Source: Hypomesus transpacificus
Taxonomy: Eukaryota > Chordata > Actinopteri > Osmeriformes > Osmeridae
Reading direction: 5' to 3'
DNA length: 64,000 nt
Assembly (NCBI RefSeq): GCF_021917145.1
Contig: NC_061071.1
Location: 5,960,037-6,024,036, forward strand
The translations under genes and the position numbers were made by a program. How positions within the stretch are numbered: the first letter of the stretch is position 1; every line of letters starts with the position of its first letter. The notes beneath the pieces are model-generated. The model was given only the letters and a program-made list of their open reading frames with translations, had not been told where the DNA came from and searched no databases. Shown piece after piece: positions 9,453 to 46,374 of this stretch.

Positions 9453-9479
9453 TTATATATATATATATATATATATATT
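9453..9479. repeat. (TA)n microsatellite
   Basis: About 13 TA units in the short intron between the two PKHD1L1-like exons. Confidence 0.9.
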
Positions 9480-9493
9480 TATTGGATGCGCAG

Positions 9494-14200: not shown

Positions 14201-14280
14201 TAATGCTTTATATTGAACAACAAAGTGACACACTGCAAAACATGACATTTCGGGCCGTCCCTGCGGCCCAACAGCCTTTT

Positions 14281-14911: not shown

Positions 14912-14979
14912 TAGTAATGAGCCTAGTAATCTTTACGGCTTATGTCACGCAGATAGATAACAACACCATCGTTAACGGT

Positions 14980-23105: not shown

Positions 23106-24515
23106 ATGTGTGTTCACTAGCTCCATCTTGTTGAAATACCCATCTCTCAGACTTTCACACGTTGTTTGCATGCATGTCACTTAATATGTCTCTCTCTCTT
23201 TCTCTCCCTGTCACATGTCTGCGATTATATAAATATGACATATGTATATTCCATTATTTATACTGTTATTTACGCCATCAAACGTTTCAGTTTCGTCAAG
23301 TGGCTGAGGAGGAAGACACCGCAGCCGGGGAGTCAAATGAATGCTGCCCTAAAGTACATCCGCATGAGAGACCACGAGGTGGCGGCGGCAGCGGCCTCAG
23401 GCGGCCCTACATCCACCCCTGCGGCCCCCGCTCCTGTGCCCATCCAGCCGCCCCCCTCCCCCCGTCCGGCCAGCCAGGCTCAAAAGGGGTATGATGTCTC
23501 ACAAATTGTGTTCTGACCAACTGCCTCCATTTATTTATAAATAAATTTTTTATTAGAGTAGCAGAGTTAAGTGTCTGGTCTCTTCCCTCCTGTGTGGTTT
23601 TGTAGGCGTCTTGGTGCGGTGGTCTCTCAGTGCTTAGGGCAACAGAGACCCCTGACTCCCCAGGCGCTGCAGGCAAAGGTGATGAAGGTCATCAAGCCTT
23701 CCCTGAAGCCTGCAGCACCAGGTGAGCGCTGACGTTTTTTCATGTCATTTTTTTTCGAATGATTGAGGATAGTTGGTTTCCTGCCATGGTGTCTGTCTCA
23801 CTCTCTCTCTCTCTTCCTGTGTCTTGCAGCGGTGTCTACTCCTCACCGGCCAGCTCAGGACACTTTCACAGACGCTGAGCTGGTCGGAGTCGTTGACGAA
23901 TATGAGAACTGTAAGTCAAAGACTTTATTGAATGTACTATTTGCAGTAGTGAAAGTATTTGTGTTATTCTTATTGATATGTAACGGTCTGACATGTTTTT
24001 CTCCTCCCTTTGACACATCAAAAAAAGGATGGGTAATGTTGGTGAGAGAAATTTAAATATCACTCCACTGTTTCGTAGCAATGTCTTGTAGCGGTGTCCT
24101 CTGCTCACGTAGTCTGTCCGTGCTTCTTCATTATAGTGACTTGCCCTTTCATCAATCACCTTTCCACATTTCACACTACATTTTTCATTTGTTTTCATTT
24201 TTTTTTTGTTTTCATTGATGTCCAGATAATTACTCCTTGGCTGCAGAAGGGTGCATGTTCTATGTCAATAATTGCTGAGGCCTGCTTCCTTCTCCTAACA
24301 TTTTTTTCTTCACTCACGCAGCAATTCACTGCAAATTAACTTCTCATAACACAAAGCACTGCACTGACAATTAACATCTCATATTTCCATCCGTTTTGGT
24401 GAGGCTTTTTTATAGCTTTTCTAACTTCTGTATTTTTATTTATGTTAAAGCCTTGCGCATACAGGTCCAAGCGCCTCATCCTACATCGGCTGTGCCTCCT
24501 GAGAGGGCGCCCCCA

Positions 24516-24640
24516 GCCCCACCGCGGGAGGAGGAGGGTCCACCGCGGGAGGAGGAGGGGGGTCCACCGCGGGAGGAGGAGGGGGGTCCACCGCGGGAGG
24601 AGGAGGAGGGTCCACCGCGGGAGGAGGAGGAGCAACTACC
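24516..24640 (+). repeat. In-frame coding repeat PPREEEG
   Basis: Five near-identical units of 21-24 bp (ccaccgcgggaggaggagg plus ggt or agggt) within the Pro-rich exon of copy B. They encode PPREEEG/PPREEEGG/PPREEEEG. Copy A has only a single unit in the corresponding exon, alternating with VPPVRAPPAPPRE, so the expansion is copy-specific. Confidence 0.85.
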
Positions 24641-26281
24641 CCTGCTGCCAGCCCTCCTGCCCGCAGGGCCCCCTGAAGACAGCCAATCATTTACCTCAGC
24701 ACTATGTTTTATATGAACTGATTATCTATACAATTCTGTTATCAATTAATATAAACATTATTATTATCAATTAATATGAAAACGTGTGTGCTCTGTCTTT
24801 GTTGTTTCTACACAGTTGTGTCCCCCTGGCTGGCGGGGAGCGCTCAGCACTGCACAGCAACAGTGGATCGGCCGGGTGCTCTTTACGTGGAAAAACAACA
24901 AAGCGGAGGTTCGGCCAGATCTCCAGCTCTGGTACGAGCCTCCGCAGCCCCGGCCGATCTACAGCCAGCCACCCGCATCGCCAGAACCCTTCTTCGCTTG
25001 TCGACTGTTCCTCTGGATGCCCGTTCGCTTATGGGCATTCAAGCTGACATGCCCCCAGCCTGCCTGCCAAGGCAAACTGCACAAGGCTGGGGTGTACACC
25101 AAGACCATCCGGAAGGTCTTAGACATCGATGCCTGGTATCTCATGGCCACTGAGTACCTGGCATGCTCTCGGTGTACGAAGAGGGTTGTGGCATGGTCAC
25201 AGGGCATAGTAAGGCAGCTGGATGCAGCCCACCGCTGCCTATTCCCAGCCATCCTCACATACAAGTAAGCGGAACACTCCGGAAACCAGTTTTTTCAATG
25301 CTTAATATTGTATAAGTGCCTCCACCCCAGCTGATTTACGTGGACCGGGACTGTTGCTCCAGCGGATCCAAGACAGCTGCCTTGTTTGCCAACTCTGACT
25401 GGCGGTTCGGCTGGACATCTGGCACCTGATGCGGCGGTTCGCAGCAGGTGTCACCACAGAGAGCCACCAGCTCTACGGTCCCTTCATGAGGCAGCTGTCT
25501 AGCTGCATCTTTGAGTGGGATGCAGCGGACGTCCGTCGATTGCTGGAGGGTAAGCGGTCCCAGCTGGAGGTGGAGCAGGGGATGGTCGGCCTGACCGATG
25601 GGGAGGTCTTCAGCCAGGTATCCAAGAAGGCGATGGGCCGCCACTGCCATCGCCGCACATGTGGAGCGGCAGAGACGGAACTGCGGCTCATCGACCTGCT
25701 GGAGGCCTTCAGCGGTGAAAAAGGACACGACACCCTGGGCATCCCCCTTTTGGACGGCAGCCGCATCCAGGCGATCTGGCGAGAGCAGAGGCGTCACCTC
25801 CGCTGCATACAAGATCCACCCGGTGTACAGCTGTACACCGAGACCGGCAGGCTGACCAAGGGCAGCGTCAGTCTGCCGGTTTATCGCTGCGCACGCGGTT
25901 CAACGTCGCTGGAGTCGTTCCACCTCCACATCAACCGGTTCATCCCAGGTAATTGATTGACATACACCATCTTTTTTTTATTTTTCTGTGTGTATAATCG
26001 GTTAAAGATAGAAGATGTTATGCTCTCTGTCTGATCGCACTCCTTTTTCTCTTCCTCCTTCAGGAACATCAGCAAACGCCCATCATTTCCAGGCGCTCCT
26101 GCTGGATGGACTGGTGAGGTGGAACGAGAACTGCGCCGCAGCAGCAGTGGAGGGACGGGAGCAGCCTCTGCTCTCCTACAGTGGCCACCTGCAGCACTCC
26201 CTTAACCAGCTCAGCCAACGGGTGCTTGGTGTGAGTCTGGTTAAGGATCACACCGCCCCAAGGGAGTGCACAGGTGTGTCA

Positions 26282-27210
26282 TTCGGTCTCAGCCAGTCGG
26301 TGCTCCAGTTCGGCAAGTATAAGGGAATCTCATTTCGCTGGCTGTTGGGGAACGATCTGGGGTATGTTGTGATGTTGTTGGCAGGTCACCAGCGTGAGAG
26401 GGAGACTGGCAACGTTTCACAGGTGCCGCTGATGGAGAACAAGGACGCCCTGGACCAGTACGCCCAGCTGTTTCCCCGGGTGGTGGCTGCGGCCCGCGAT
26501 CGGCGCGGGTTGGACAGGCACCCTGGACCTGCTGCCGACGGACGATAAGGGACGTAAGCTGGTGGGCTTTGACGCCCATTCCGCGGTGCCTTTCGCTCCC
26601 CTCTACGAGTCTGTGGATTAGCAGCATGCATCGTAAGTACCAAACTCCAAGTTGAAATGAAACTATTGTTATATTTAATCACTATTAAGATTGTTGTCAT
26701 GGGCAAAGTTACTGACCAAGTTACTTAATTTACTGACCATGATCATAAACTATAGTTACTTGCTGCAATGTACTGTGTATTGTAAGAGTAAGCCTTATTT
26801 GAAGGAAAATAAGTTAACCGTTCTCTGATGTCTTTCCATTATCCTACAGATACGTACAGTGGCTTAAGAAGAAGGTTTCGCGTCCAGGCTCTCAGATGTC
26901 GATGCTTATTGAGAACATCAAGAGGAGGGATGAGAAGAAAGCGTTTTCTTCCTCTACCACCTATCGGCCTCCTTCCTCTTCTTCAGCACAGCCTGCCAAC
27001 AAAGGCCTCAGAGTAAGTCCATTTCACAGTGATAAACACAAATGACAATGTTTGTATGTGTGTCAGATATTAAAGTCATACTATTTGTCCTCAGCTTCTT
27101 CTCAGTCTGCAGGCCGGCCCGGTCCCAGGCCTCCTCCGTCACCTGCCACACAGCCAGGAGCCACTGACATCCATGAGGACGTGCTCGTGTTGGCCGCAGC
27201 GGAGATGCAC
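26282..27210 (+). repeat. 930-bp block inserted into an intron of copy B
   Basis: In copy A the intron after PREYTG runs straight into catactcctcatcggtgtaaacg. In copy B the two halves are separated by about 930 bp carrying the type-2 N terminus (LQFGKYKGISFRWLLGNDLG, HQRERETGNVSQV, YVQWLKKKVSRPGSQMSM). The reading frame continues from PRECTG into this block. The same block stands at 21,460-22,330. No target duplication or transposon ends are visible, so a template switch or gene-conversion event fits better than transposition. Confidence 0.65.
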
Positions 27211-29030
27211 ACATACTCCTCATCGGTGTAAACGTATCTGAGTTTATCATCCAAATGTCCCCACCCTCCTCCTAACCACCGCCCCTCTCTCTATGTCATT
27301 ACAGGTGAACTCCTGGGGGTGGAGTACCTGTACTCCCAGACGGGCAGAGTGCTGCAGGACACCAGCGTGGACCCTGACATTCCGGACGAGGAACCCGCCA
27401 TCCAGGAGCTCAACGTGGAGGACGAGGGCTTTGAAGAGGCAGGCGACGATGAGGATGACCCAACCGTCCACGTCGTCTTGCCTCTGCCCGACGCCTCGTC
27501 CTCCAGCACAGCAGTGGTGGCAACTCGGTCAGGCGTTCACACTGGTGCACCCGGGTCAGGGCCATCCGTTCCGGGCGCCCCCCCTGACAGCAACAACCCT
27601 CCTGAGGCCCCGGAGTTAGAGGTTGACGCACCTCTGAACTCCTCTTCAGACACTGAGGTACGAGGGAGTGAATTTGTAGACTTTGCTGTGTTTTGAATTT
27701 TTGATTCTTTTTTGATTTATTTGTATTCTTTTTTTAATTCACTTTTCCTTTTTTGTTTTGTCTTTCCTCTTACAGGAGTGCAAAGGACCCGATGGTCAGC
27801 CTGGCTATCAACACATTTGCAGGCTGGCCACGGCCTTGGTAGAGGTGCGTCACCTTCCGGGGCTGAGTGAGAGCAGGGTAGACCGCCTGGTGGAGCTGTG
27901 GCAGGCTCAACCAGAGCCAGACAAACGGCATCTGGTCCACCCTGCGCGACACTAGGAGAGGTTGGTCAGGGGGAGGTTCAAGGCAACCAAGTCTCCCGGT
28001 GTGGCAGGCAGGGATTCACTCAAGCGGTATGTTTTATTTTCATTCAATTGATAATACAGAAAAGGCATCTACAGCTCATATTAAATATAGGGGGAGTCTA
28101 CAACAGTCATTTTTTCTTCTAGTTGCCTGCTCGGAACCGCCTCGGGTCCTGCAAGCTGGCCAAGCACGAGTCGCCTTGTGGAGGCCGTTTGCAGCCAGCT
28201 CTGCCGTCTCAATCCATCGGCCACGCAGTCCGCCGGGGTCAAAAGGACCAGGTGGTCCCTCGTTATGGCGGACTATGTGGCCATCAGAGACGCAGTGCTG
28301 GACAACCCGAGGCTGATGGCCCAGACCAACCTACAGCTCTTTGAGCTCAATCAGCGGACCTTATCACAATGGTGAGATATCTGAAAATGTAACAGTATTA
28401 AGGGAGGGCAGTCTATAAACATGGCTGTGTGTAATACATGACTGACAATGTTGTCTGTGTGTGTGTTACAGGTACTGCGTGCGTCAGAAGGAGAGGGAGA
28501 GTGCCATCCTCCTACAAGACTTGGCCCCCCCTGCTCCGGGTCCAAGTCTTGCTGCCCAGCCTCTCCCTGCTACCAGGCCCCTCCAGTACCAGCAGGAGGG
28601 ACACTGGCAGCCCTTCCCCTTTGAGACGCCGCAGGACCTCACACGCCAGGCTACCCAACAGCGACGGCCCGCCCCAGTGCCCATTCTGCCAGCCCAGCCA
28701 CCAGCCTCAACCGCCAGCCTCAACCGCTCTGTCCCAGGACAATGTCGGTGAACCCCCCCACCCTCCTCCTCCAGAGACAGTCCCACGTACCACTGCCTGG
28801 AGGAAACGACAGATGGAGGCGGGTGGCACCGACCAGCCCCGGAAGGCCCCAAGACAATTCCTGTGCAGCAAGTGTGGGCTGCCAAAGAGGAAAGACACAG
28901 GACACACCCAGTTTGGCGGCACCCACTTCTGCTCTGTGGCCTCTGGAGGGAAGAGCGTTGAGGTGTGGCTGGCAGAACAGAGAGACGCTACTAAGGGGGC
29001 AAAGTGACAGAGACACTGAGCATCCTGTTG

Positions 29031-29290
29031 GGTAAGTGGGACGTTTGCTTGTATATAGTTCCACGTTCTGGTTCACCTCTATAAGAACCAAGACCTTGGC
29101 GAGGTATAGAGACTTGTGTGTGTCGAAGACCCTCAGAGCTAGGTTGTCTGTAGTCTTAGGACTACTGGCAGGGACTCCCATGGCAAACAGGTCTGAGGTG
29201 AGACACCAGACAAACATTGGTTCAATGCATTCAATAAATTCAGGACAAGGACTGAATGAATACACTGTTCAGTGACTGTTCAGTGCACCA
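29031..29290 (+). other. Segment between the two C-terminal modules
   Basis: About 260 bp present in copy B and in the palindrome arms but absent at the corresponding place in copy A. It contains aggactactggcagggactcc, and cagtgactgttcagtgcacc marks its junction with the next module. No gene is recognised. Confidence 0.4.
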
Positions 29291-29822
29291 CTCCCTGCAG
29301 CCATGCAGCTACTTCAGTCTGCAGAGCAGCCAGACAACCCCCGTCCCTATGTCGAATCTGAGGATACGTCCGGTCAGGCAGAACGGAGGGGGGGTCAGCA
29401 GCCTCCTCAGGTCGAGGTCCAGGCTGAATCGGCCGTTTGAAGACAACAGCCTGCCGGAGGAAAAAGAAGACGGACATGGCCACGTCCAATGTCACGCAGG
29501 GTACAACTCCTACTACAAAGAAGGAGAGGAGTTTCATCAAGTTCACCTGCGAGCTCTGTGGTCAGCCAAAGACCAAGGAGTTTGGCCACAGCCGCTTTCG
29601 GTCAGAAAACTTCTGCTCGTCCACAGCTGGGTGCTCGGTCGAAGAGTGGCTGGCCGAGAAGAGGGCAAAACCGTAGCTGTTCGACACTGCACTACCAGCA
29701 CACAGGCACCAAGCCCTACCCGCAGCATGCAGGCAACAAGCTCTGCCCGCAGCAAGGCCCAACCAGCCAGCCCTGCAACAACTTCAGAAGGACAAGACAG
29801 GCAGTACACTTATCCTTCTTAA
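29290..29822 (+). pseudogene. Second C-terminal zinc module, copy B side (left arm 1)
   Basis: At 29437-29676 it encodes KTTACRRKKKTDMATSNVTQ, a TTPTTKKERSFIKF linker and the zinc motif CELCGQPKTKEFGHSRF, NFCSSTAGCSVEEWLAEKR. The CxxC and GHxxF...C residues are complete here, unlike in copy A. Upstream exons of this paralogue are missing, and a stop separates it from the preceding Gln/Pro-rich frame, so it is a gene fragment. The preceding copy B exons end with a diverged version of the same motif. Confidence 0.6.
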
Positions 29823-30074
29823 TGTGGCTTGTCACTGACTGAAGTGCCTACGTATCTATCTATTCTTCCTATGAACCCAGTTATGACTGCTTTAAACAAG
29901 TACCGGTTGGCTACACACCTCATGCCGGGCTTATACAGATGTGTGTATTGGCACTTTAATTATTATATCCACATATCAATGTATAATTATTAAATCCACT
30001 GCAACAATAGGACAAAGGAACACCAACAAAATGTGAATAGCCTACAAACAATAAGCATACTACTGTAACAGGCT

Positions 30075-30954
30075 TAGAGCCGCAACAAACGCTTATTATT
30101 ATTAATAATCGACTTATCTAACGATTATTAGAACCATAAGTCGACTAATCATCTATTTTTTTCATTGATTAATCAGAATGCTTTGAATGATTATTCAGCT
30201 TATACAATTTGTTAAAACACTGAGTTATAATTATTCTAACTAATAAATAAAACCAAGAAATCACTTCAGCTTTTGAAAAAAATATTTGTATTAAACTTTG
30301 AGCCAACTGAACAGGCTATTACATCTCTTTTTGTCCAATTTTGTCCAACCTAAATAAAAAAATCAAGTCTCTTGTTAGACAACAGGGTTCTGTTCAATGA
30401 AAAACAGTGAGTAACAGTATAATTTCTGGACTGGCTTTTTGTTTGTCTCATTACAATGGTCATATACACTGATCTGTCTAACTGCTGTCTGTGGACATGT
30501 TGCTACTGTGTTAGTATTCGTGAAATACTGCGTAATTTGTTATTACCAACTGGTGTAGCTAACTAGCCATCCAGCTTGAGCACGCTCACCTCTTGCAGTC
30601 TCCTCTCGTGCGGGGATGCTTTCGTTTTAAATGTTTATGCATGCACGTTGTGCTACCATGGAAAACAAGTTCGGCCTTGCACACATTCCATATGACAGTA
30701 TTTTTAGTTGAATCTTTGGTGAAACGTTCCCACACGCGACTTTATCAGGCCCGTTTGCACCCTAAAATGTTAACCGCTTTTTTCTTCTATTGGATAGCAT
30801 ACGGGAGGGCTGCTTTAGTCTACCGCTACAGCGCCGCACTGGTCAAATCACGTTAGTGCAGGCATTTAAAATAGGTCCTATGAGATCAAACGATTTGTCG
30901 ACAATTTTTTAATGTCGACGCTGTCGATAACGTCGAATTATCGTTGCAGCCCTT
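30075..30954. mobile_element. 880-bp hAT-like non-autonomous element (left arm 1)
   Basis: Termini tagagccgcaac and gttgcagccctt are imperfect inverted repeats of the TAGGGCTGCAAC type. They are followed by cgattatt/gtcgac-rich subterminal sequence that folds back on itself. The 8-bp duplication aacaggct flanks it at 30067-30074 and 30955-30962, as hAT transposases produce. The interior has no transposase. Confidence 0.8.
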
Positions 30955-30979
30955 AACAGGCTAGAGGCTATTCTAGGTT

Positions 30980-31084
30980 TTAAAACTGGTCGTAGCATTC
31001 ACTATCTAACCACTCGTTCAGGTGCTTTCTCGAGTGTTTGCAACCAACTACCGCACACGTCGTTCCCGAACCACTTTTCTTCAT
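30980..31084 (-). pseudogene. THAP-like N-terminal fragment (left arm 1)
   Basis: A 34-residue frame: MKKSGSGTTCAVVGCKHSRK, then HLNEWLDSECYDQF and stop. CAVVGC...LNEWLDSEC resembles the start of a THAP-type or P-element-like zinc domain seen in many teleost proteins. Everything after it is missing, so it is at best a relic or one exon. Exact copies occur at 43012-43116 (+), 48241-48345 (-) and 60273-60377 (+). Confidence 0.3.
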
Positions 31085-31089
31085 GTTGT

Positions 31090-31692
31090 AAATTGTATAT
31101 CCTCTTTGACACTGCAACATCAGTGCTTTGTCGGCAAAACGGAGCTAGCTAGCAAAACAAACCCAGCCCGCCAGAACGGAAGTGGATTGCATATAGGCAG
31201 ACATTAGTGAAGGTCAGAGGTCGAAGAGCTGGATGTTAAAGAATTAAGAATGGGCTTTTAGGGGTGCCAAGATTAAGATTAGGTAAGAGGTCGAAGAGTT
31301 AGGGTTAAGGACTCACGGTCAGGTATGGTTATCGACGGTTGACGTTAGGATAACCTACAGGTTGGGGATATTAGTTGTCACTAGGTGTAAAAAAGAGAGG
31401 GAGGACTTTTGGGTTGTGGTCATAAGTAAGTGGCCAATAAGTTATGATAAAGGATCTATGGTCAGATATGGCAGTGAAATTTAGGTTTAGGTGAAAGATC
31501 AGGGAGCTCGATTTCAGAAAACTAAATAATAGGAAGGCTGCTGAGAGTAGGTTAACATACGTGATTTAAACATCAGAATAAGGACTTAAGGTCAGATATG
31601 ACTCCTGATGGTCGAGGCTAAGATAGTCTACATATTAGGAACATGTATTGTCAAAATACGCAAGGGAGAGAGAAAAAATAGATTATGTACGT
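31090..31692. other. Degenerate internal repeats, no gene
   Basis: Loose repetition of aggtcgaagagttagg, ggtcaggtatggttat and ggtcagatatg motifs over about 500 bp suggests an old tandem array. No coding potential is recognised. Confidence 0.45.
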
Positions 31693-31700
31693 GTGTGTAC

Positions 31701-32514
31701 TAGGGATGTAACGATATTGACGAGATTGCGCTATCGCGGTGGTCAACGTGTCTCGATATCGTCGTGGTTGGGTTACAATATTAAAATGACAGGTGTCCGT
31801 CAAAAAGCAAGAGGAATAAACACAGTCCCGCGGAACAAATCATTGTTAATTACATAGACCATGATCCTTTGCGCTGCGTTGTCACAACAACCATTGTTAA
31901 GCCAATAGGATTGCCCGCTGCACGCTGTCCACACAAGCTCGCAAGCCAGCATGGTACTTGGATGAAAACAACAACCCCGAAGTTGAGATTGTGCCAGCCC
32001 CTGCAGCTTTTAAATCAGATGTCTGGAAACATTTTGGTTTTGCCGTGTCAAAAAACGCAAAAGGAGATAACGTGGCTATGTGCAAGCACTGCCACAGTAA
32101 ACTGCGATACAACACGTGTAACACAAGCAACATGCTAAGTCATCTGACAACCCATCATCCCGAAAAGTTTGCAGATTCTCTCACAAAGAAAGTAATCTCC
32201 GGTCAAAAAACCCTGAAGGAGGCATTTTTTATTATTATTATTATACAGAATATTGATGTTCCTGACTACAACTTGCACTTTAAAAGCACTATGTGATCAG
32301 CGTTTTATGTTGTCATTATCCATAAATACAACAATAAATTGCCTGTTGACTGGCAAAAGCAGAATAAATGTCGTATTTGTTTTGCTATTATCATCACAAA
32401 CACTATCGTGAGCTATTTAACAATACCGTGAGCTTTTCCACAATAAATATCGTACCGTGAGGTCAATATCGAAATTGTATCGTACCGTGAGATTTTGATA
32501 TCGTTACATCCCTA
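31701..32514 (+). mobile_element. 814-bp hAT element with BED zinc finger (left arm 1)
   Basis: Inverted termini tagggatgtaacgatat and atatcgttacatccctagt-type sequence bound the element. The 8-bp target duplication gtgtgtac stands at 31693-31700 and 32515-32522. This is diagnostic of a hAT (Ac/ZBED-like) insertion. Subterminal repeats of ctcacggtacgat and atcgtaccgtgag occur near the right end. Only the N-terminal BED finger of a transposase survives inside, so it needs a helper. Confidence 0.88.
31958..32296 (+). CDS. BED-type zinc-finger fragment of a hAT transposase
   Basis: 112 residues, left arm 1. The BED finger reads SDVWKHFGF, then C42 and C45 (MCKHCHSKL) and H62, H66/H67 (SNMLSHLTTHH), with the following LTKKVISGQKTLKEAF linker typical of ZBED proteins. 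BED fingers bind DNA. The RNase-H and dimerisation domains are absent. R50 (CGA at 32105-32107) is a TGA stop in both arms of the second palindrome. An identical open copy lies at 41800-42138 on minus. Confidence 0.7.
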   Translation: MDENNNPEVEIVPAPAAFKSDVWKHFGFAVSKNAKGDNVAMCKHCHSKLRYNTCNTSNMLSHLTTHHPEKFADSLTKKVISGQKTLKEAFFIIIIIQNIDVPDYNLHFKSTM

Positions 32515-32522
32515 GTGTGTAC

Positions 32523-35270
32523 GCGAGAGAGAGAGAGTGTGAGTTAGAGGTAGTGTGCATGTGTGTGTGGGGGAGAGAGAGAGAGATAGAAGAGCATAGT
32601 GGAGAGATCTGCAGGTCCCAGTGTTAGTAATTACCCAAATGGCCATTGTAGTGGCACCTAAGGTCAAAGGCTGTACCTTGGAAACGTATGGTTAGGAGCC
32701 AGGGACCAGATGGTAACCGAGAAGCCTGGAGGAGAATTAATTGGAGAAGGTATAAAATTAGTATGTATCAAAGACCAAGGAAGAGAAAATCATGAGAGGC
32801 AGTTATATTGAGTCAATGAGGTGTGATATGGTATGGTGTATGACTAAGGAATAAATGAGAGGCAGGGGGTAACATTGGATAATGATGACAAGGAAGACAT
32901 GAGGGTGTGACAACATGGAGCTGAGAATAACCCCAAAGGAAAAGAGGGAAAAGTAAAAACATTAATAGTGGAGGTGACAAGAGGGATAGTGAGGACAGAA
33001 AGTGAGACCTGATAACTGTCCTATTTTAGGAATAATATTATAGATTAAATTATCTAAAAGAAAAATTGTGAATAAATGTGATACCAGATCACTGTCACCA
33101 TATGGTGAAATATTGAATTAAAGTACTAAAGTAGATGATAATGAAAGAAAAAAGCATGATGGAGAAGAAGGTTCAAAATTTACGGGAGAAAATGGCTACC
33201 GAATGTAAGCCTCGTATGGTGGGGCCCAGTAAGAGACCGCATGTAGGTCTAAAATGGCTGCCAAATGCAGACCACGTGTATCAGACCGGGTCATGTAAGA
33301 TTGAGGGGAACAAAATGGTAGTCAACCGCTGAGCACATGTGTCGGGCTCCTTAAAGGAGAGAATGTGCTAGGCCTCAAAGACCGTAAGGGAAACCAAAAC
33401 CACTAACAAGGTCAGTAGAGAAAAATAAATACAATTAACATGGAGAGAATCCGATATAGTGTAAATAAAAAATAACATACAGTAAAATTAAGAAGGAAAA
33501 GGATTATCCTTTAACGGCTAATATCCATGTGGACGGAGTAGGCTATAACTAGGTAATTAAGCTAGCGCCATAGCACAGGTCCCGGAGATTCTTATTAACG
33601 TGTCCCAAGAGTGGGGGAACAATAACAAAAAGAGTAATAATAACAGTACACAGTGGAAGACAAGGGGAGACATAATGGGTTAGTGTATAACGTATGAGAG
33701 AAATAAATGTATGATGCCATGTGTAATTATTTAAGTTATGAAATCAGTAGGAGGCCCACACAAGCTAGCCCGTGGCATCGGAGGCTTATGGCTAAAGACG
33801 GAGCACGCACGGACAAAGAACCAAAATGGGTAACAAGCGCAGTGACAAGATAAAACGCAAACATTGATGGATAAATAGACTAATTTCAAAATTCTCTGAT
33901 TAGTGTAAACTTTAGGAAACTTACTGGAAAGCAACAGAGGCGGTGTAGGGATGGTTCGTGAGGGAGCAGGCGGTGGCCCCGGGAGACCCACAGAAGATCC
34001 AGTCAAGGGACGAAGACGAGGTTGTCAGAAGAGTTGGAATTTTTTTGAAAGAATAATAAAAATTGAAATATGAAAAATAATTTCGTTTTTTCAGGAACAC
34101 CGAGTTTTAGGATGCGAAACGGAGGTCGTAGAACACGGAGTGGTCGGTGAGAAAAATGAAATTTTGGTTAAAGATAATATAATTAGTCTAATTGAAGTGA
34201 GAAAAAAAGTTTTCTGAGGTCAAGTAAAGTTAAGCGGACTGGAAATGAATCCAAACGGTGAACAGCTAACAGAACTGGAAATAAATTCAAGCAAAGGTAA
34301 TCTAAGGACGGTGCACACGGGCAATATTAAAGAAAAGACTGAAGCCCTGAATCAAAATGGAAGACCGCTAGACTAATATCGACGAGTGCGGATGGAAGGT
34401 CCAATCAGGTGTAGGGGGCGGGAGCTCGGGTAACAGGTGCGTGGGATTGAAGGCAAACCCTTGATTGACACAACGAGGCCGGAAGTACCCGGCACCGATT
34501 GTAAATGAAAAGCAAGAAGCTAGCTTGTGAATAGCCATAATTAGGTGGAGCATGAAGACCAGAGATTGGGACACATCAATGGGTGGAAACGAAATTGCTG
34601 TAACAGTAATAGGTCGGAGAGATGAGGGTCATCCTAGAGTAAATACATTCATTAGTGAATTAAATAATGTGAAATGCGCGAAACCGGAAGCAGCAGTCGT
34701 CCGATTTAAACAGGAGGTAAAATGCTAACATACAAACAACCAATCCCAAGGGCAACGCAGACACCAGAGATTAGTTGAACGAGATATTAGGGGAATGTAA
34801 TTGTTATTATTGGGAGGGTTTGGAAAGGTGTAGACCAGTCCAGAAACTAGACGAGTATTACAAAATCCGATGTAAGATAATGGACAATGCAGTATATCCG
34901 AGGAGGTACGTGACGTCATAGGGAATCCCTGAGAAAGACCGGTCGGGGCATCTGTCACCCCGTGGAATTAAGGTGCAACGCATGCCATGGATGTACAGGG
35001 ATGAAATATTATGATCATTGAATGAATAAAGATATCAATATGTGAACATGTGTAGTGTATTGATTTGTTGGCAAATTACTAGGAGCCCCGTTAGGGCTGA
35101 AAGTATTGTATTAAAGTGACCCAGCGTGTATAAGTAGATTAAAAGTGGGTAAAGTCCGGGGTGAATCCAAGTAGAAAGGAATATGATCCATAAATATATA
35201 GTAGTACGGCCGGGTCCAAGAGACATTAAAATCCTTTTTAGAAACATATCCGCAGTGAGAACATTTGAAT
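32523..35270. other. Arm-internal sequence with no recognised gene
   Basis: GA/GT-rich simple repeats at 32,523-32,590, then about 2.7 kb of AT-rich DNA. Short frames (for example 33135-33332 on plus, 34368-34574 on minus) match nothing I know. The minus strand near 34,380-34,450 has a CCAAT-like cctgattggacc and a GC-rich gagctcccgcccc, which could be a promoter, but no reading frame follows convincingly. Confidence 0.4.
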
Positions 35271-35274
35271 AGAG

Positions 35275-36110
35275 GCCCAGTTAAAGGTGCATCTATTTGG
35301 TAGAAATACAATCTGTAATGTAAGTAAATTAGAGAAAGGCAAACTCCACATAGTGAAAAAGCCCATCTCTGTGAAAGTATACAATATAGCCAAGACCAGC
35401 AGGTGTAAAATCACTGGTAATAAACGTAATCAAGAGCAATCAACAATATAGACTGAGTTTAAGTGTACCAATTTTGTACCACCAGCATTGTAGTCATAGT
35501 GAGGTAAAGGGTCAACTCCATTTTATGAAAAGGCTAGTCCTGTTGAAGTATATAGTGTTGCCTAAATCAGTAGATGCGAGTTCACCAACCATAAACGTTA
35601 TAAACAGTATGAAATATTAATATTATAAATAGGCCAAATTAAAGGTGCATCCATTTGGTGGGTACACAACCCTTATTGAGGTAAAGTGAAAGGTTAACTC
35701 TATTTAGTGAAATAACTAACCCTGGTGAAAACATACCATATTGTCTGGACCCGCATGTATAAGATTACCCCACACCGACGTGATCAAGAGTAATAAATAT
35801 TATAGACTAAGTATAAGGTGTAGTAATACCGTACCATCAACATTGTAGTAATTAGTGGAGTCAAGGTTAACATCATTCTATGAGGGGGCTAGTCCTGTTG
35901 AAGTATATAGCATGGTCTAATTCAGCAGGCACACGGTCGCCAACCATAAAGGTTATAAATAGTATATAAATATTAATATTAATGGGGAAAGTTGAAAGTG
36001 TATCCATTATGTAAAGTAAACTACCTTGCAATAGGTTGAGTCAGAGGTCAAATCTATCCCATAAACACTACGTCCAGATAAGCTATACGGTTAAAGTTTG
36101 CAATTATAGA
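35275..36110. repeat. Degenerate tandem array, about 360-bp unit of two half-units
   Basis: The landmark taaaggtgcatc...atttggt occurs at about 35,282 and 35,641. A half-unit starting with aggtaaa/ggcaaactcc and ending with gtcctgttgaagtatata lies between. A third, more diverged unit runs to about 36,110. The palindrome edge (35,794) falls inside this array. The mirrored parts are at 38302-38821, 52536-53055 and 55247-56082. Confidence 0.75.
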
Positions 36111-36404
36111 AAAACTACTCATGTACGTAAACTACAGTATGTTATGGATTATAAAAAACAAAACATTGCAGAGATGTAGAGATACATATTGAGGTGGTTA
36201 GTGATCTCCTTGTACACAGGTGTTCCTCGTAGATCCAGGTGTGGTCCTTCGTCCTCTCGCATCCAGGTATATGGTGCACAGTGTGATGCAACAACATGAA
36301 CACAAGGATGGGGTGCCCCAGTAGGGGTAATATTGTACCACACAGGTAATGTGTGGGAGGAGATCCATTCTGAGAAGGTGTATTCAATAAACAACAAAGT
36401 TGAT

Positions 36405-36690
36405 AACATGATTCAGGGTATTGTCGCCTGAGGTATCACATGTTAGTATAAACTAGTAGCAGATGTATTTCAGAGTAAACAACATGGTTCAGGGTATTGT
36501 CACCTGAGGTATCACATGTTTGTATAAACTTGCAACAGATATATTTCAAGGTAAATAACATGGTTCAGGATGTTATTACCTGAGGTATCTCATGTTAGTA
36601 TAGACTTATAGTAGAAACATTTCAGAGTTGATAACATGGTTCAGGGTACTATACCCCGAGGTATCACATGTTAGAATAGACTTGTACCTC
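36405..36690. repeat. 76-bp tandem repeat, about 3.8 copies
   Basis: Units begin aacatg(g/a)ttcagg at 36405, 36481, 36557 and 36633, an exact 76-bp period. Each contains cctgaggtatcacatgttag. Similarity between units is about 80-90 percent. The mirror copy is at 54667-54952. Confidence 0.92.
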
Positions 36691-37460
36691 TCTCAACCAA
36701 AACCCTCAATGTAGACAAGGAAAAACTCCCAGTAAAACTCTTTTGAGAGAAATTTGGAAGACACCTTGGGAGGAGCTATTCAAAGAGGGATCCCCTCCCA
36801 CAGGGATGGTTGGTGACCAAGAGGTACAAAATCTATATTACTCAGTTATACATTGTGTCAATGTTAGTGAGTGTTGAAACATCAGAGTCCAGTGTATAAC
36901 ATGTGTTGGAGGTAGTGTTATCCGTTGAGGTAGAAGAGGTCAATGGTTTCGAGGTCGTGGTGGGCGTGGCCGTCCCAGCAGGAAGGTGAGGAGACCGGAA
37001 CGTCATTTGCAGGTCATCCCGGTTGTGTAGTGTCTCACGGACGTCATCAGTCCATGGTGAGGAGGGTGTTACGGTGAAGGATCCGTCGGCACGTGTGGGC
37101 CCGGGGCAGCCTGTACACGGTCGGCTCCCCAAACCACAGTCTCCGCCTCAGTGTCTGTGGATGTGAATCAGAAGGAGGAGAGGTAGGATAAGAGATCTGT
37201 AGGCTGTTGCAAGGGGAGACCCTCACAACAACAGGTTGTGAATAAACTCTGAGTAGTGGCTTCCGTATGCTAGGTTGACTTAGGTTGACTACTGTAAAAC
37301 CATGTCCTCTGACAACGCCTTTTGGACCTCTTCCTTTCTAAAAAAACAAAGACTTGTGTTAATCCCCATCAACACTGAGCAAAGGGGGGGGGGATGGATG
37401 TGTCACCACACAACTTGACCTTCTGAACTTGTCTCATCCTGCTGGTGTCCATCATGGTCA

Positions 37461-38180
37461 ATGGTCAAAGGCCCTGAGTATTCTAAATGTATAGTGTTTT
37501 GCTCCTGTCCTGTCCTATCCTCACAAAGGGATATTGAAATGCTAATTCTTTCGAGGTTCTTTTCACTCAAACCAACATTCCATGGTCTCGCCATGTTGTT
37601 CACGCCGCACCGACCCCGGCTCCTGAACCGTAGACTAAAACAGAACCTGGTTCAGCACCTGAGAGGCTCTGGCACTTTGGAAGGAGCCACCCTCAACTCG
37701 GCTTATAAGAAAAACTGCAGTGTTGGTGAGTTCCTGGTCCGAAGTGGCCTCAGACCACTTAGCCAGACTCCGCAGCCGACGCACACACACTTTTCACCCC
37801 TCGCTGCCATTCACTGTCGAACGCTCAAGGTCAGGCTCACAGTAGCCTCCCTGCCACCGTCGACCTGTAACGCAGTGTATGTGATCACGTGCAGTGCATG
37901 CGGCTTGCGCTATGTCGGTGAGACGGGTAATTCTCTCCAACAACGCCTCACCCAACATCTCTATAATATCAATAACCGCCGCAACTTAGACTCACACCTA
38001 GTCCCCCACTTCCTGAGACACGGAGCCGAATCTCTTAACATGAGCAGCCTGGAACACAACCAAGAGTGGACGCGTATACTAAGGCAGGCCGGCGAGAGAA
38101 AATGGATATGGAGGCTCTCCTCCTTATATCCTGGGGGCCTTAGTGTTCGGGATATCTTCAATGCTTGGACCCTGTACTGA
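37461..38180 (+). CDS. GIY-YIG endonuclease-domain protein, Penelope-like element C terminus
   Basis: 239 residues. The GIY-YIG core lies at about 138-220: AVYVITCSACGLRYVGETG gives the first Tyr (Y140) and the YVG (151-153). R162 and H166 follow in LQQRLTQH, and the acidic metal ligand E212 stands in AGERKWIWRL. Cys residues C119, C136, C144 and C147 fit the zinc-binding insertion typical of Penelope-like retroelement (PLE) endonucleases. The protein ends YPGGLSVRDIFNAWTLY. The residues before about 50 may be untranslated sequence. No reverse transcriptase is found upstream, so this is a truncated PLE or a captured endonuclease. The catalytic residues all look intact. Confidence 0.72.
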   Translation: MVKGPEYSKCIVFCSCPVLSSQRDIEMLILSRFFSLKPTFHGLAMLFTPHRPRLLNRRLKQNLVQHLRGSGTLEGATLNSAYKKNCSVGEFLVRSGLRPLSQTPQPTHTHFSPLAAIHCRTLKVRLTVASLPPSTCNAVYVITCSACGLRYVGETGNSLQQRLTQHLYNINNRRNLDSHLVPHFLRHGAESLNMSSLEHNQEWTRILRQAGERKWIWRLSSLYPGGLSVRDIFNAWTLY

Positions 38181-41100
38181 TCACAGCACTCAGACTCCTA
38201 TTTGACAACAGCCGTAGTAGTCTACTATTACCACTGACCTCATTATAATCTGAGGACGTTAACCTTGACCCCTTAGGGATCAGGGCCCGTATCTTTAAAG
38301 AATTACTCTTGATCACGTCGGTGTGAGGTAATCTTATACCTGCGGGTCCAGACAATATGGTATGTTTTCACCAGGGTTAGTTATTTCACTAAATAGAGTT
38401 AACCTTTCACTTTACCTCAATAAGGGTTGTGTACCCACCAAATGGATGCACCTTTAATTTGGCCTATTTATAATATTAATATTTCATACTGTTTATAACG
38501 TTTATGGTTGGTGAACTCGCATCTACTGATTTAGGCAACACTATATACTTCAACAGGACTAGCCTTTTCATAAAATGGAGTTGACCCTTTACCTCACTAT
38601 GACTACAATGCTGGTGGTACAAAATTGGTACACTTAAACTCAGTCTATATTGTTGATTGCTCTTGATTACGTTTATTACCAGTGATTTTACACCTGCTGG
38701 TCTTGGCTATATTGTATACTTTCACAGAGATGGGCTTTTTCACTATGTGGAGTTTGCCTTTCTCTAATTTACTTACATTACAGATTGTATTTCTACCAAA
38801 TAGATGCACCTTTAACTGGGCCTCTATTCAAATGTTCTCACTGCGGATATGTTTCTAAAAAGGATTTTAATGTCTCTTGGACCCGGCCGTACTACTATAT
38901 ATTTATGGATCATATTCCTTTCTACTTGGATTCACCCCGGACTTTACCCACTTTTAATCTACTTATACACGCTGGGTCACTTTAATACAATACTTTCAGC
39001 CCTAACGGGGCTCCTAGTAATTTGCCAACAAATCAATACACTACACATGTTCACATATTGATATCTTTATTCATTCAATGATCATAATATTTCATCCCTG
39101 TACATCCATGGCATGCGTTGCACCTTAATTCCACGGGGTGACAGATGCCCCGACCGGTCTTTCTCAGGGATTCCCTATGACGTCACGTACCTCCTCGGAT
39201 ATACTGCATTGTCCATTATCTTACATCGGATTTTGTAATACTCGTCTAGTTTCTGGACTGGTCTACACCTTTCCAAACCCTCCCAATAATAACAATTACA
39301 TTCCCCTAATATCTCGTTCAACTAATCTCTGGTGTCTGCGTTGCCCTTGGGATTGGTTGTTTGTATGTTAGCATTTTACCTCCTGTTTAAATCGGACGAC
39401 TGCTGCTTCCGGTTTCGCGCATTTCACATTATTTAATTCACTAATGAATGTATTTACTCTAGGATGACCCTCATCTCTCCGACCTATTACTGTTACAGCA
39501 ATTTCGTTTCCACCCATTGATGTGTCCCAATCTCTGGTCTTCATGCTCCACCTAATTATGGCTATTCACAAGCTAGCTTCTTGCTTTTCATTTACAATCG
39601 GTGCCGGGTACTTCCGGCCTCGTTGTGTCAATCAAGGGTTTGCCTTCAATCCCACGCACCTGTTACCCGAGCTCCCGCCCCCTACACCTGATTGGACCTT
39701 CCATCCGCACTCGTCGATATTAGTCTAGCGGTCTTCCATTTTGATTCAGGGCTTCAGTCTTTTCTTTAATATTGCCCGTGTGCACCGTCCTTAGATTACC
39801 TTTGCTTGAATTTATTTCCAGTTCTGTTAGCTGTTCACCGTTTGGATTCATTTCCAGTCCGCTTAACTTTACTTGACCTCAGAAAACTTTTTTTCTCACT
39901 TCAATTAGACTAATTATATTATCTTTAACCAAAATTTCATTTTTCTCACCGACCACTCCGTGTTCTACGACCTCCGTTTCGCATCCTAAAACTCGGTGTT
40001 CCTGAAAAAACGAAATTATTTTTCATATTTCAATTTTTATTATTCTTTCAAAAAAATTCCAACTCTTCTGACAACCTCGTCTTCGTCCCTTGACTGGATC
40101 TTCTGTGGGTCTCCCGGGGCCACCGCCTGCTCCCTCACGAACCATCCCTACACCGCCTCTGTTGCTTTCCAGTAAGTTTCCTAAAGTTTACACTAATCAG
40201 AGAATTTTGAAATTAGTCTATTTATCCATCAATGTTTGCGTTTTATCTTGTCACTGCGCTTGTTACCCATTTTGGTTCTTTGTCCGTGCGTGCTCCGTCT
40301 TTAGCCATAAGCCTCCGATGCCACGGGCTAGCTTGTGTGGGCCTCCTACTGATTTCATAACTTAAATAATTACACATGGCATCATACATTTATTTCTCTC
40401 ATACGTTATACACTAACCCATTATGTCTCCCCTTGTCTTCCACTGTGTACTGTTATTATTACTCTTTTTGTTATTGTTCCCCCACTCTTGGGACACGTTA
40501 ATAAGAATCTCCGGGACCTGTGCTATGGCGCTAGCTTAATTACCTAGTTATAGCCTACTCCGTCCACATGGATATTAGCCGTTAAAGGATAATCCTTTTC
40601 CTTCTTAATTTTACTGTATGTTATTTTTTATTTACACTATATCGGATTCTCTCCATGTTAATTGTATTTATTTTTCTCTACTGACCTTGTTAGTGGTTTT
40701 GGTTTCCCTTACGGTCTTTGAGGCCTAGCACATTCTCTCCTTTAAGGAGCCCGACACATGTGCTCAGCGGTTGACTACCATTTTGTTCCCCTCAATCTTA
40801 CATGACCCGGTCTGATACACGTGGTCTGCATTTGGCAGCCATTTTAGACCTACATGCGGTCTCTTACTGGGCCCCACCATACGAGGCTTACATTCGGTAG
40901 CCATTTTCTCCCGTAAATTTTGAACCTTCTTCTCCATCATGCTTTTTTCTTTCATTATCATCTACTTTAGTACTTTAATTCAATATTTCACCATATGGTG
41001 ACAGTGATCTGGTATCACATTTATTCACAATTTTTCTTTTAGATAATTTAATCTATAATATTATTCCTAAACTAGGACAGTTATCAGGTCTCACTTTCTG

Positions 41101-41581
41101 TCCTCACTATCCCTCTTGTCACCTCCACTATTAATGTTTTTACTTTTCCCTCTTTTCCTTTGGGGTTATTCTCAGCTCCATGTTGTCACACCCTCATGTC
41201 TTCCTTGTCATCATTATCCAATGTTACCCCCTGCCTCTCATTTATTCCTTAGTCATACACCATACCATATCACACCTCATTGACTCAATATAACTGCCTC
41301 TCATGATTTTCTCTTCCTTGGTCTTTGATACATACTAATTTTATACCTTCTCCAATTAATTCTCCTCCAGGCTTCTCGGTTACCATCTGGTCCCTGGCTC
41401 CTAACCATACGTTTCCAAGGTACAGCCTTTGACCTTAGGTGCCACTACAATGGCCATTTGGGTAATTACTAACACTGGGACCTGCAGATCTCTCCACTAT
41501 GCTCTTCTATCTCTCTCTCTCTCCCCCACACACACATGCACACTACCTCTAACTCACACTCTCTCTCTCTCGCGTACACAC

Positions 41582-42395
41582 TAGGGATGTAACGATATCA
41601 AAATCTCACGGTACGATACAATTTCGATATTGACCTCACGGTACGATATTTATTGTGGAAAAGCTCACGGTATTGTTAAATAGCTCACGATAGTGTTTGT
41701 GATGATAATAGCAAAACAAATACGACATTTATTCTGCTTTTGCCAGTCAACAGGCAATTTATTGTTGTATTTATGGATAATGACAACATAAAACGCTGAT
41801 CACATAGTGCTTTTAAAGTGCAAGTTGTAGTCAGGAACATCAATATTCTGTATAATAATAATAATAAAAAATGCCTCCTTCAGGGTTTTTTGACCGGAGA
41901 TTACTTTCTTTGTGAGAGAATCTGCAAACTTTTCGGGATGATGGGTTGTCAGATGACTTAGCATGTTGCTTGTGTTACACGTGTTGTATCGCAGTTTACT
42001 GTGGCAGTGCTTGCACATAGCCACGTTATCTCCTTTTGCGTTTTTTGACACGGCAAAACCAAAATGTTTCCAGACATCTGATTTAAAAGCTGCAGGGGCT
42101 GGCACAATCTCAACTTCGGGGTTGTTGTTTTCATCCAAGTACCATGCTGGCTTGCGAGCTTGTGTGGACAGCGTGCAGCGGGCAATCCTATTGGCTTAAC
42201 AATGGTTGTTGTGACAACGCAGCGCAAAGGATCATGGTCTATGTAATTAACAATGATTTGTTCCGCGGGACTGTGTTTATTCCTCTTGCTTTTTGACGGA
42301 CACCTGTCATTTTAATATTGTAACCCAACCACGACGATATCGAGACACGTTGACCACCGCGATAGCGCAATCTCGTCAATATCGTTACATCCCTA
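41582..42395 (-). mobile_element. BED-finger hAT element, right arm 1
   Basis: Mirror of the element at 31701-32514, with the same 8-bp flanks (gtacacac on this strand). The BED frame 41800-42138 is open and identical. Confidence 0.88.
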
Positions 42396-43141
42396 GTACA
42401 CACACGTACATAATCTATTTTTTCTCTCTCCCTTGCGTATTTTGACAATACATGTTCCTAATATGTAGACTATCTTAGCCTCGACCATCAGGAGTCATAT
42501 CTGACCTTAAGTCCTTATTCTGATGTTTAAATCACGTATGTTAACCTACTCTCAGCAGCCTTCCTATTATTTAGTTTTCTGAAATCGAGCTCCCTGATCT
42601 TTCACCTAAACCTAAATTTCACTGCCATATCTGACCATAGATCCTTTATCATAACTTATTGGCCACTTACTTATGACCACAACCCAAAAGTCCTCCCTCT
42701 CTTTTTTACACCTAGTGACAACTAATATCCCCAACCTGTAGGTTATCCTAACGTCAACCGTCGATAACCATACCTGACCGTGAGTCCTTAACCCTAACTC
42801 TTCGACCTCTTACCTAATCTTAATCTTGGCACCCCTAAAAGCCCATTCTTAATTCTTTAACATCCAGCTCTTCGACCTCTGACCTTCACTAATGTCTGCC
42901 TATATGCAATCCACTTCCGTTCTGGCGGGCTGGGTTTGTTTTGCTAGCTAGCTCCGTTTTGCCGACAAAGCACTGATGTTGCAGTGTCAAAGAGGATATA
43001 CAATTTACAACATGAAGAAAAGTGGTTCGGGAACGACGTGTGCGGTAGTTGGTTGCAAACACTCGAGAAAGCACCTGAACGAGTGGTTAGATAGTGAATG
43101 CTACGACCAGTTTTAAAACCTAGAATAGCCTCTAGCCTGTT

Positions 43142-44021
43142 AAGGGCTGCAACGATAATTCGACGTTATCGACAGCGTCGACATTAAAAAATTGTCGACA
43201 AATCGTTTGATCTCATAGGACCTATTTTAAATGCCTGCACTAACGTGATTTGACCAGTGCGGCGCTGTAGCGGTAGACTAAAGCAGCCCTCCCGTATGCT
43301 ATCCAATAGAAGAAAAAAGCGGTTAACATTTTAGGGTGCAAACGGGCCTGATAAAGTCGCGTGTGGGAACGTTTCACCAAAGATTCAACTAAAAATACTG
43401 TCATATGGAATGTGTGCAAGGCCGAACTTGTTTTCCATGGTAGCACAACGTGCATGCATAAACATTTAAAACGAAAGCATCCCCGCACGAGAGGAGACTG
43501 CAAGAGGTGAGCGTGCTCAAGCTGGATGGCTAGTTAGCTACACCAGTTGGTAATAACAAATTACGCAGTATTTCACGAATACTAACACAGTAGCAACATG
43601 TCCACAGACAGCAGTTAGACAGATCAGTGTATATGACCATTGTAATGAGACAAACAAAAAGCCAGTCCAGAAATTATACTGTTACTCACTGTTTTTCATT
43701 GAACAGAACCCTGTTGTCTAACAAGAGACTTGATTTTTTTATTTAGGTTGGACAAAATTGGACAAAAAGAGATGTAATAGCCTGTTCAGTTGGCTCAAAG
43801 TTTAATACAAATATTTTTTTCAAAAGCTGAAGTGATTTCTTGGTTTTATTTATTAGTTAGAATAATTATAACTCAGTGTTTTAACAAATTGTATAAGCTG
43901 AATAATCATTCAAAGCATTCTGATTAATCAATGAAAAAAATAGATGATTAGTCGACTTATGGTTCTAATAATCGTTAGATAAGTCGATTATTAATAATAA
44001 TAAGCGTTTGTTGCGGCTCTA
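43142..44021. mobile_element. 880-bp hAT-like element, right arm 1
   Basis: Mirror of 30075-30954 with the same aacaggct duplication in reverse complement. Confidence 0.8.
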
Positions 44022-44273
44022 AGCCTGTTACAGTAGTATGCTTATTGTTTGTAGGCTATTCACATTTTGTTGGTGTTCCTTTGTCCTATTGTTGCAGTGG
44101 ATTTAATAATTATACATTGATATGTGGATATAATAATTAAAGTGCCAATACACACATCTGTATAAGCCCGGCATGAGGTGTGTAGCCAACCGGTACTTGT
44201 TTAAAGCAGTCATAACTGGGTTCATAGGAAGAATAGATAGATACGTAGGCACTTCAGTCAGTGACAAGCCACA

Positions 44274-46274
44274 TTAAGAAGGATAAGTGTACTGCCTGTC
44301 TTGTCCTTCTGAAGTTGTTGCAGGGCTGGCTGGTTGGGCCTTGCTGCGGGCAGAGCTTGTTGCCTGCATGCTGCGGGTAGGGCTTGGTGCCTGTGTGCTG
44401 GTAGTGCAGTGTCGAACAGCTACGGTTTTGCCCTCTTCTCGGCCAGCCACTCTTCGACCGAGCACCCAGCTGTGGACGAGCAGAAGTTTTCTGACCGAAA
44501 GCGGCTGTGGCCAAACTCCTTGGTCTTTGGCTGACCACAGAGCTCGCAGGTGAACTTGATGAAACTCCTCTCCTTCTTTGTAGTAGGAGTTGTACCCTGC
44601 GTGACATTGGACGTGGCCATGTCCGTCTTCTTTTTCCTCCGGCAGGCTGTTGTCTTCAAACGGCCGATTCAGCCTGGACCTCGACCTGAGGAGGCTGCTG
44701 ACCCCCCCTCCGTTCTGCCTGACCGGACGTATCCTCAGATTCGACATAGGGACGGGGGTTGTCTGGCTGCTCTGCAGACTGAAGTAGCTGCATGGCTGCA
44801 GGGAGTGGTGCACTGAACAGTCACTGAACAGTGTATTCATTCAGTCCTTGTCCTGAATTTATTGAATGCATTGAACCAATGTTTGTCTGGTGTCTCACCT
44901 CAGACCTGTTTGCCATGGGAGTCCCTGCCAGTAGTCCTAAGACTACAGACAACCTAGCTCTGAGGGTCTTCGACACACACAAGTCTCTATACCTCGCCAA
45001 GGTCTTGGTTCTTATAGAGGTGAACCAGAACGTGGAACTATATACAAGCAAACGTCCCACTTACCCAACAGGATGCTCAGTGTCTCTGTCACTTTGCCCC
45101 CTTAGTAGCGTCTCTCTGTTCTGCCAGCCACACCTCAACGCTCTTCCCTCCAGAGGCCACAGAGCAGAAGTGGGTGCCGCCAAACTGGGTGTGTCCTGTG
45201 TCTTTCCTCTTTGGCAGCCCACACTTGCTGCACAGGAATTGTCTTGGGGCCTTCCGGGGCTGGTCGGTGCCACCCGCCTCCATCTGTCGTTTCCTCCAGG
45301 CAGTGGTACGTGGGACTGTCTCTGGAGGAGGAGGGTGGGGGGGTTCACCGACATTGTCCTGGGACAGAGCGGTTGAGGCTGGCGGTTGAGGCTGGTGGCT
45401 GGGCTGGCAGAATGGGCACTGGGGCGGGCCGTCGCTGTTGGGTAGCCTGGCGTGTGAGGTCCTGCGGCGTCTCAAAGGGGAAGGGCTGCCAGTGTCCCTC
45501 CTGCTGGTACTGGAGGGGCCTGGTAGCAGGGAGAGGCTGGGCAGCAAGACTTGGACCCGGAGCAGGGGGGGCCAAGTCTTGTAGGAGGATGGCACTCTCC
45601 CTCTCCTTCTGACGCACGCAGTACCTGTAACACACACACAGACAACATTGTCAGTCATGTATTACACACAGCCATGTTTATAGACTGCCCTCCCTTAATA
45701 CTGTTACATTTTCAGATATCTCACCATTGTGATAAGGTCCGCTGATTGAGCTCAAAGAGCTGTAGGTTGGTCTGGGCCATCAGCCTCGGGTTGTCCAGCA
45801 CTGCGTCTCTGATGGCCACATAGTCCGCCATAACGAGGGACCACCTGGTCCTTTTGACCCCGGCGGACTGCGTGGCCGATGGATTGAGACGGCAGAGCTG
45901 GCTGCAAACGGCCTCCACAAGGCGACTCGTGCTTGGCCAGCTTGCAGGACCCGAGGCGGTTCCGAGCAGGCAACTAGAAGAAAAAATGACTGTTGTAGAC
46001 TCCCCCTATATTTAATATGAGCTGTAGATGCCTTTTCTGTATTATCAATTGAATGAAAATAAAACATACCGCTTGAGTGAATCCCTGCCTGCCACACCGG
46101 GAGACTTGGTTGCCTTGAACCTCCCCCTGACCAACCTCTCCTAGTGTCGCGCAGGGTGGACCAGATGCCGTTTGTCTGGCTCTGGTTGAGCCTGCCACAG
46201 CTCCACCAGGCGGTCTACCCTGCTCTCACTCAGCCCCGGAAGGTGACGCACCTCTACCAAGGCCGTGGCCAGCC
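44274..46274 (-). pseudogene. 3' exons of the family, right arm 1
   Basis: Mirror of copy B from 27,822: part of the exon with ECKGPDGQ... is cut by the gap; then come SLVMADYVAIRDAV...FELNQRTLSQW (45,721-45,973), the YCVRQKERE exon and its zinc motif (45,089-45,635), and the second zinc module (44,420-44,659). It carries the same TAG (46141-46143) and the 13-bp duplication. Confidence 0.65.
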
Positions 46275-46374
46275 NNNNNNNNNNNNNNNNNNNNNNNNNN
46301 NNNNNNNNNNNNNNNNNNNNNNNNNNNNNNNNNNNNNNNNNNNNNNNNNNNNNNNNNNNNNNNNNNNNNNNNNN
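46275..46374. other. Assembly gap of exactly 100 N
   Basis: A run of 100 N, the conventional placeholder for a gap of unknown size between scaffolded contigs. The left contig ends at the equivalent of 27,822 of the arm. The right contig starts at the equivalent of 29,114. Open frames drawn across it are artefacts. Confidence 0.99.

Follow-up and report, generated by a model that had tools for sequence, protein, structure and literature searches.

A probable young palindrome with near-identical arms, partly repeated by the assembly, in Hypomesus transpacificus

It is on sex chromosomes that large, almost perfect palindromes have been studied best. Is the inverted repeat in the middle of this stretch of Hypomesus transpacificus DNA such a palindrome, how far does it extend, and why does the assembly present parts of it twice? 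The window, meaning the whole analysed stretch of 64,000 nucleotides, lies at C12:5960037–6024036. It was compared with one assembly of 437,198,280 bp in 376 contigs, and 140 kb were added rightward. The sequences to the left and right of the N gap in the window are called contig 1 and contig 2.

In contig 1, 27822–35794 pairs in reverse complement with 38302–46274 along 7,973 bp; the BLAST alignment has three mismatches (33024, 35756 and 35770), no gaps and an identity of 99.962%. A chance origin is excluded by this length and identity. In a base-by-base comparison along the mirror sum of 74,096, 31 bins of 250 bp, out of 32 across 27750–35749, contained no mismatch and the remaining bin contained one. 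Bins outside the arms differed by 68–80%, the level of unrelated DNA. The arm alignment thus bears out the preliminary description, which had claimed a near-perfect palindrome with two mismatches less than 40 bp from the spacer (35756 and 35770). By our own cut-offs for a large palindrome (arms of several kb, at least 99% alike), the locus as assembled has long inverted arms of sufficient identity around a short spacer. The GC and AT skews switch sign around the spacer, and the same switch is seen again after the N gap. In the inner arm at 31000–36000, one strand is strongly enriched in purines (GC skew reaching +0.29 and AT skew +0.28 per kb); the bias is reversed in the mirror at 38000–43000.

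The extent first given, 27822 to 46274, holds a real match and is ruled out as the true extent. The gap of 100 N begins directly after 46274, and 27822 is only the partner of this contig end. The right arm of contig 1 stops at 46274 because the contig ends, and contig 2 extends the match. Within the window, contig 2, from 46375 onwards, matches contig 1 in reverse complement, starting at 44982 and reaching 27357 at the window end (17,626 bp, 8 mismatches). With the right extension, the mirror continues to window-numbered position 68147, the partner of 23210, covering 21,773 bp with 11 mismatches and no gaps (99.949%). Past 68147/23210 the flanks, L on the left and R on the right, are unlike each other apart from copies of a local family at 89–99%. 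Since the mirror ends at this pair and the flanks then differ, the full arm corresponds to 23210–35794; the arm is probably 12,585 bp and the spacer 2,507 bp long. Arms extending beyond the entire left portion of the window are ruled out by the same end of the match. The two gap-side arms end in mid-arm at different points (the equivalents of 27822 and 29114), both exactly at the gap, and the gap-side arm of contig 2 has one mismatch to 62243–55563. The coordinates are collected in Table 1. The window is preceded by 2,500 N, and contig 2 runs from 46375 to window-numbered 86374, exactly 40,000 bases, followed by 10,000 N.

Table 1. Features of the palindrome locus, in window coordinates.
Feature	Position	Strand	Remarks
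Leukotriene-receptor-like frame	6425–7294		Left flank
Left arm, A	23210..35794	+	Probably 12,585 bp; 7 differences to the contig 2 reverse match; copy of the DUF6729 family in the outer part and two hAT-like insertions
hAT-like insertion 2	30066..30961	+	8-bp TAACAGGC duplications at 30066–30073 and 30954–30961
hAT-like insertion 1	31693–32522	+	Perfect 16-bp ends; target duplication GTGTGTAC; mirrored at 41574–42403
BED-finger frame (zf-BED) in hAT-like insertion 1	31901–32296		
Unit of about 352 bp, two copies	35273..35981	+	Copies 74% alike; the second spans the arm/spacer edge 35794|35795
Spacer, S	35795..38301	+	2,507 bp, contig 1 orientation; two full copies for query 36000–37400 (40 of 1,020 candidates scored)
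76-bp tandem repeat in spacer	36403–36686		
GIY-YIG frame in spacer	37419–38180		
Gap-side arm of contig 1	38302..46274	-	63% of the probable arm, cut by the contig end; 3 mismatches to 35794–27822
Gap of 100 N, separating contigs 1 and 2	46275..46374	.	Sole N run in the window
Gap-side arm of contig 2	46375..53055	+	6,681 bp, 53% of the probable arm, cut by the contig start; 5 mismatches to 29114–35794
Contig 2 spacer	53056..55562	-	Orientation opposite to contig 1; differs at 2 of 2,507 positions
Flank-side arm of contig 2	55563..64000	-	Runs past the window to window-numbered 68147

The reading that we prefer, and consider fairly probable, is one real young palindrome of the order L-A-S-A'-R, homogenised by conversion, perhaps segregating for an inversion of the spacer, and partly repeated by the assembly. 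The arm, the spacer and the inverted second arm would lie in repeat-rich DNA between a side with CFAP47-like and leukotriene-receptor-like sequences and a side with AIG1 and homeobox sequences. The palindrome would have arisen when an inverted copy of A was added beside S. The arms would later have exchanged sequence by gene conversion, as the patterns of variable sites suggest, and crossing over between them would probably flip the spacer and thus give rise to both orientations. Coming from either flank, the assembler may have failed to get through the second arm, producing two overlapping contigs, one for each spacer haplotype, which the scaffold would then abut with the 100-N gap. Parts of the arms and the entire spacer would appear twice because two overlapping contigs of one palindrome were abutted.

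The numbers of copies in the assembly bear on this reading. The inner-arm queries 35000–36000 and 32530–34900 were each found in four places at 100%, all at this locus (all candidates scored); two of the four places for the former cover 795 of the 1,001 bases because the query passes the arm edge. For the outer arm (query 25300–27800), two full copies were found among 43 matches, and the rest were partial and at most 98% alike (35 of 35 candidates scored). The spacer query 36000–37400 gave two full copies among 43 matches, both at this locus (40 of 1,020 candidates scored). The flanks gave one full-length copy each: the R-flank query among 96 matches, the others being partial (40 of 2,182 candidates scored), and the L-flank query 7800–9400 among 40 matches (40 of 212 candidates scored), where the next match was 1,477 bp on C4, followed by 38 shorter partial matches. 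The C4 match is part of a 1,645-bp stretch (window 7924–9566 against C4:10404610–10406254, 99.8%) and is probably a recent transposition. A duplication of the L flank on C4 is ruled out, because the compared 20 kb of C4 contain no strong match beyond these 1,645 bp. Counts of four, two, two, one and one fit two overlapping contigs of one palindrome.

The queries found no full copies of the arm or the spacer elsewhere in the assembly (spacer query: 40 of 1,020 candidates scored), and inspection by eye of the sequence outside 23210 and 68147 revealed no target duplication common to both sides. A mobile element with long terminal inverted repeats was rejected on these two grounds.

Arms and spacers together contain 10 variable positions, at 9 of which contig 2 departs from reversed contig 1; the 11 mismatches over 21,773 bp correspond to these 9 distinct sites, two of them being counted in both arms. 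The outer-arm sites 23541, 25671 and 27122 are readable only in the left arm of contig 1 and the right arm of contig 2. Five sites are readable in all four arms. In the order left and right arm of contig 1, left and right arm of contig 2, their bases are C, C, T, T at 32105; T, G, G, G at 33024; G, G, A, A at 34065; T, G, G, G at 35756; and C, T, T, C at 35770, which adjoins the spacer and goes with its orientation. Two sites are therefore concerted (32105 and 34065), one is opposite (35770) and two are private to one arm, a reading that presumes that the contigs are haplotypes and rests on few sites, of which 32105 is a CpG. When 32105 or 34065 is combined with 35770, all four combinations are present, hence the arms exchanged sequence, barring recurrent mutation.

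Gene conversion between the arms is thus supported by few sites. The earlier suggestion that it keeps the arms alike is strengthened by the identical breakpoints in two non-identical contigs and by the two concerted sites, with which the opposite pairing at 35770 is in keeping, and weakened in that no more than two of the five sites readable in all four arms are concerted. The differences between the contigs are unlike raw long-read consensus error, because there is no indel in 21,773 bp in spite of 42 homopolymers of 6 or more within 27357–44982. Some of the variable sites may nevertheless be consensus errors, since five of the 10 are transversions.

The spacers of the two contigs differ at 36083 and 36956. 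The flank of each contig is joined to the same spacer end (the 35795 side), and the contigs thus hold opposite spacer orientations. As a single palindrome on one chromosome permits only one orientation, either the two haplotypes differ by a flip of the spacer or one of the arm paths is wrong. The paths from flank to spacer cross a 12.6-kb arm and were possibly misjoined; the orientations may then be a choice of the assembly and not a polymorphism. We regard flipping of the spacer as plausible, but unproven. The two spacer haplotypes, with 2 of 2,507 sites differing, suggest that the locus is present on both homologues, which speaks against hemizygosity. The hint of a sex chromosome in the preliminary description is not supported. 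The only mobile-element frame recognised in the spacer is the GIY-YIG frame, presumably Penelope-like.

The edges of the palindrome give some indication of the ancestral order. The edge 35794|35795 looks ancestral because the 352-bp repeat spans it; a periodicity scan of 31.0–36.4 kb found only a weakly raised lag of 354 bp. A diverged relative at C376:11034–16354 has pieces in the order of 32537–37325, 59–81% alike, which lie on both sides of this edge, while nothing in it matches 34830–36207; this relative also suggests that the edge is ancestral. On the R side, 68148–68476 matches 20033–20363 at 99.1%, followed by pieces to 69760 at 89–97%, and contig 1 beyond 23210 carries a different fragment of the same local family. 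The edge between R and A' looks ancestral because the R side carries on the family copy that matches 20033–20363. The other two edges of the palindrome would then be derived. Placing a single inverted copy of A between L and S would most simply yield the order of contig 2, and contig 1 would then hold the flipped one.

The DUF6729-bearing family forms a local cluster of shuffled copies in both orientations, about 80–98% alike, at 14279–20363, 22516–29778 and in the R flank at 68148–77849; long relatives outside this cluster are few (C9, C10 and C56). The inverted blocks of 91–98% identity at 14.3–20.0 and 22.5–29.8 kb were considered as an outer palindrome and rejected, being shuffled copies of this low-copy family. 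Two copies keep a DUF6729 frame of 162 codons open; they differ at 12 of 486 nt, and dN (0.014) lies below dS (0.064). Among five arm frames compared with Pfam, one matched DUF6729 (PF20499) and one zf-BED, and three had no match; none of the arm frames scanned was recognised as a complete host gene. Both arms carry the hAT-like insertions at the same place and the arms are gapless. The insertions thus predate the inverted duplication, as had been proposed from the first inspection.

A bolder form of the preferred reading is more tentative. It takes the locus, on the evx1/HoxA side of a fish chromosome, as a young and possibly autosomal palindrome whose arms convert and whose spacer flips in one diploid individual, or, bolder still, as a real nested array of four arms. 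We hold this to be possible and rather doubtful.

Taken literally, the scaffold describes two opposite palindromes on one chromosome, with four arms and two spacers, that is, a nested inverted duplication of the breakage-fusion or template-switch kind. The presence of four inner arms and the two differences between the spacers agree with such an array. However, it would require four full outer arms, or losses in the assembly, and the assembly has two (35 of 35 candidates scored); furthermore, both gap-side arms stop in mid-arm at different points, exactly at the gap. We therefore consider the array unlikely.

It is also quite improbable that contig 2 represents an allele of contig 1 (a haplotig) that escaped purging and was put next to it in reverse, or that separate loci were misjoined via a shared palindrome. 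The near-identity of contig 2 to reversed contig 1 (99.949% over 21,773 bp) and the same spacer end facing the flank in both contigs would be expected of such an error, but the flanks beyond 68147/23210 are unlike save for the local family copies at 89–99%, and the L and R queries have one full-length copy each (212 and 2,182 candidates, 40 scored each). That fold-back chimeric reads or mirroring by the assembler created a palindrome absent from the genome is very improbable: palindromic chimeras are common after whole-genome amplification (PMC6218980) and the contigs do end inside arms, but breakpoints should differ between independent events, and here two contigs with different bases share base-exact breakpoints, the 2.5-kb spacer and the arm-to-arm difference at 35770, which independent chimeras are not expected to share.

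The single palindrome that we prefer resembles several known systems. The flip/flop region of Saccharomyces chromosome XIV, which recurs across species, is 24 kb long and enclosed by arms of 4 kb that carry sporulation genes (PMC9731477). It shares with the present locus a near-identical inverted repeat, which in Saccharomyces is continually homogenised and known with both orientations of the middle; here the arms are 12.6 kb, the middle is 2.5 kb, and the orientation polymorphism is only presumed. Palindrome P6 of the human Y chromosome was typed in 378 chromosomes, and its inversions are rare (PMC3723533). Human Y palindromes also have arm identity above 99.9%, homogenised by conversion, with inversion possible via crossover between arms; P6 is Y-linked, whereas here two spacer haplotypes come from one assembly. 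In Atlantic herring, also a fish, inverted duplications of 8–60 kb lie at three of four inversions and are thought to drive inversion by non-allelic recombination (PMC11499932); there the inversions are megabases long and the duplications 85–99% alike, whereas here 2.5 kb are flanked by arms more than 99.9% alike. False duplications in assemblies retain haplotype-specific sequence as a second locus (PMC9516828). The present case is similar in this respect and differs in that an unresolved palindrome is the likely cause and only the overlap would be repeated. Our search of the literature on KDZ elements and autosomal palindromes found nothing specific.

The kind of structure is thus already known, and the locus is a candidate for a self-homogenising, flip-flopping locus and not proof of a sex chromosome. 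Were such a locus to lie outside the sex chromosomes, with readable arm edges, junctions of both ancestral and derived type and two haplotypes, it would make conversion and spacer flipping measurable in diploid meiosis. The case also illustrates how an assembly can contain the same stretch twice, with its middle inverted, where a palindrome is left unresolved, a pattern that could be mistaken for a larger amplicon.

The left flank contains dystrophin/utrophin-like sequence and, weakly, CFAP47-like sequence. The right flank contains Tc1-type and DDE transposases, AIG1, a DUF3528 frame, which we take to be of Hox type, a homeodomain and bZIP. Six of the nine flank frames scanned had matches; an evx1-like frame and two frames on the dystrophin side had none. 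With Rfam gathering scores, one tRNA was found at 3871–3942. A long open Tc1/mariner-type transposase frame of 358 codons was observed at L012:1591–2664. The R-flank query also revealed an interspersed repeat at nine places in one orientation, about 9–28 kb apart, at G000:C14:3085436–3221969 (40 of 2,182 candidates scored), a spacing that suggests a large tandem array.
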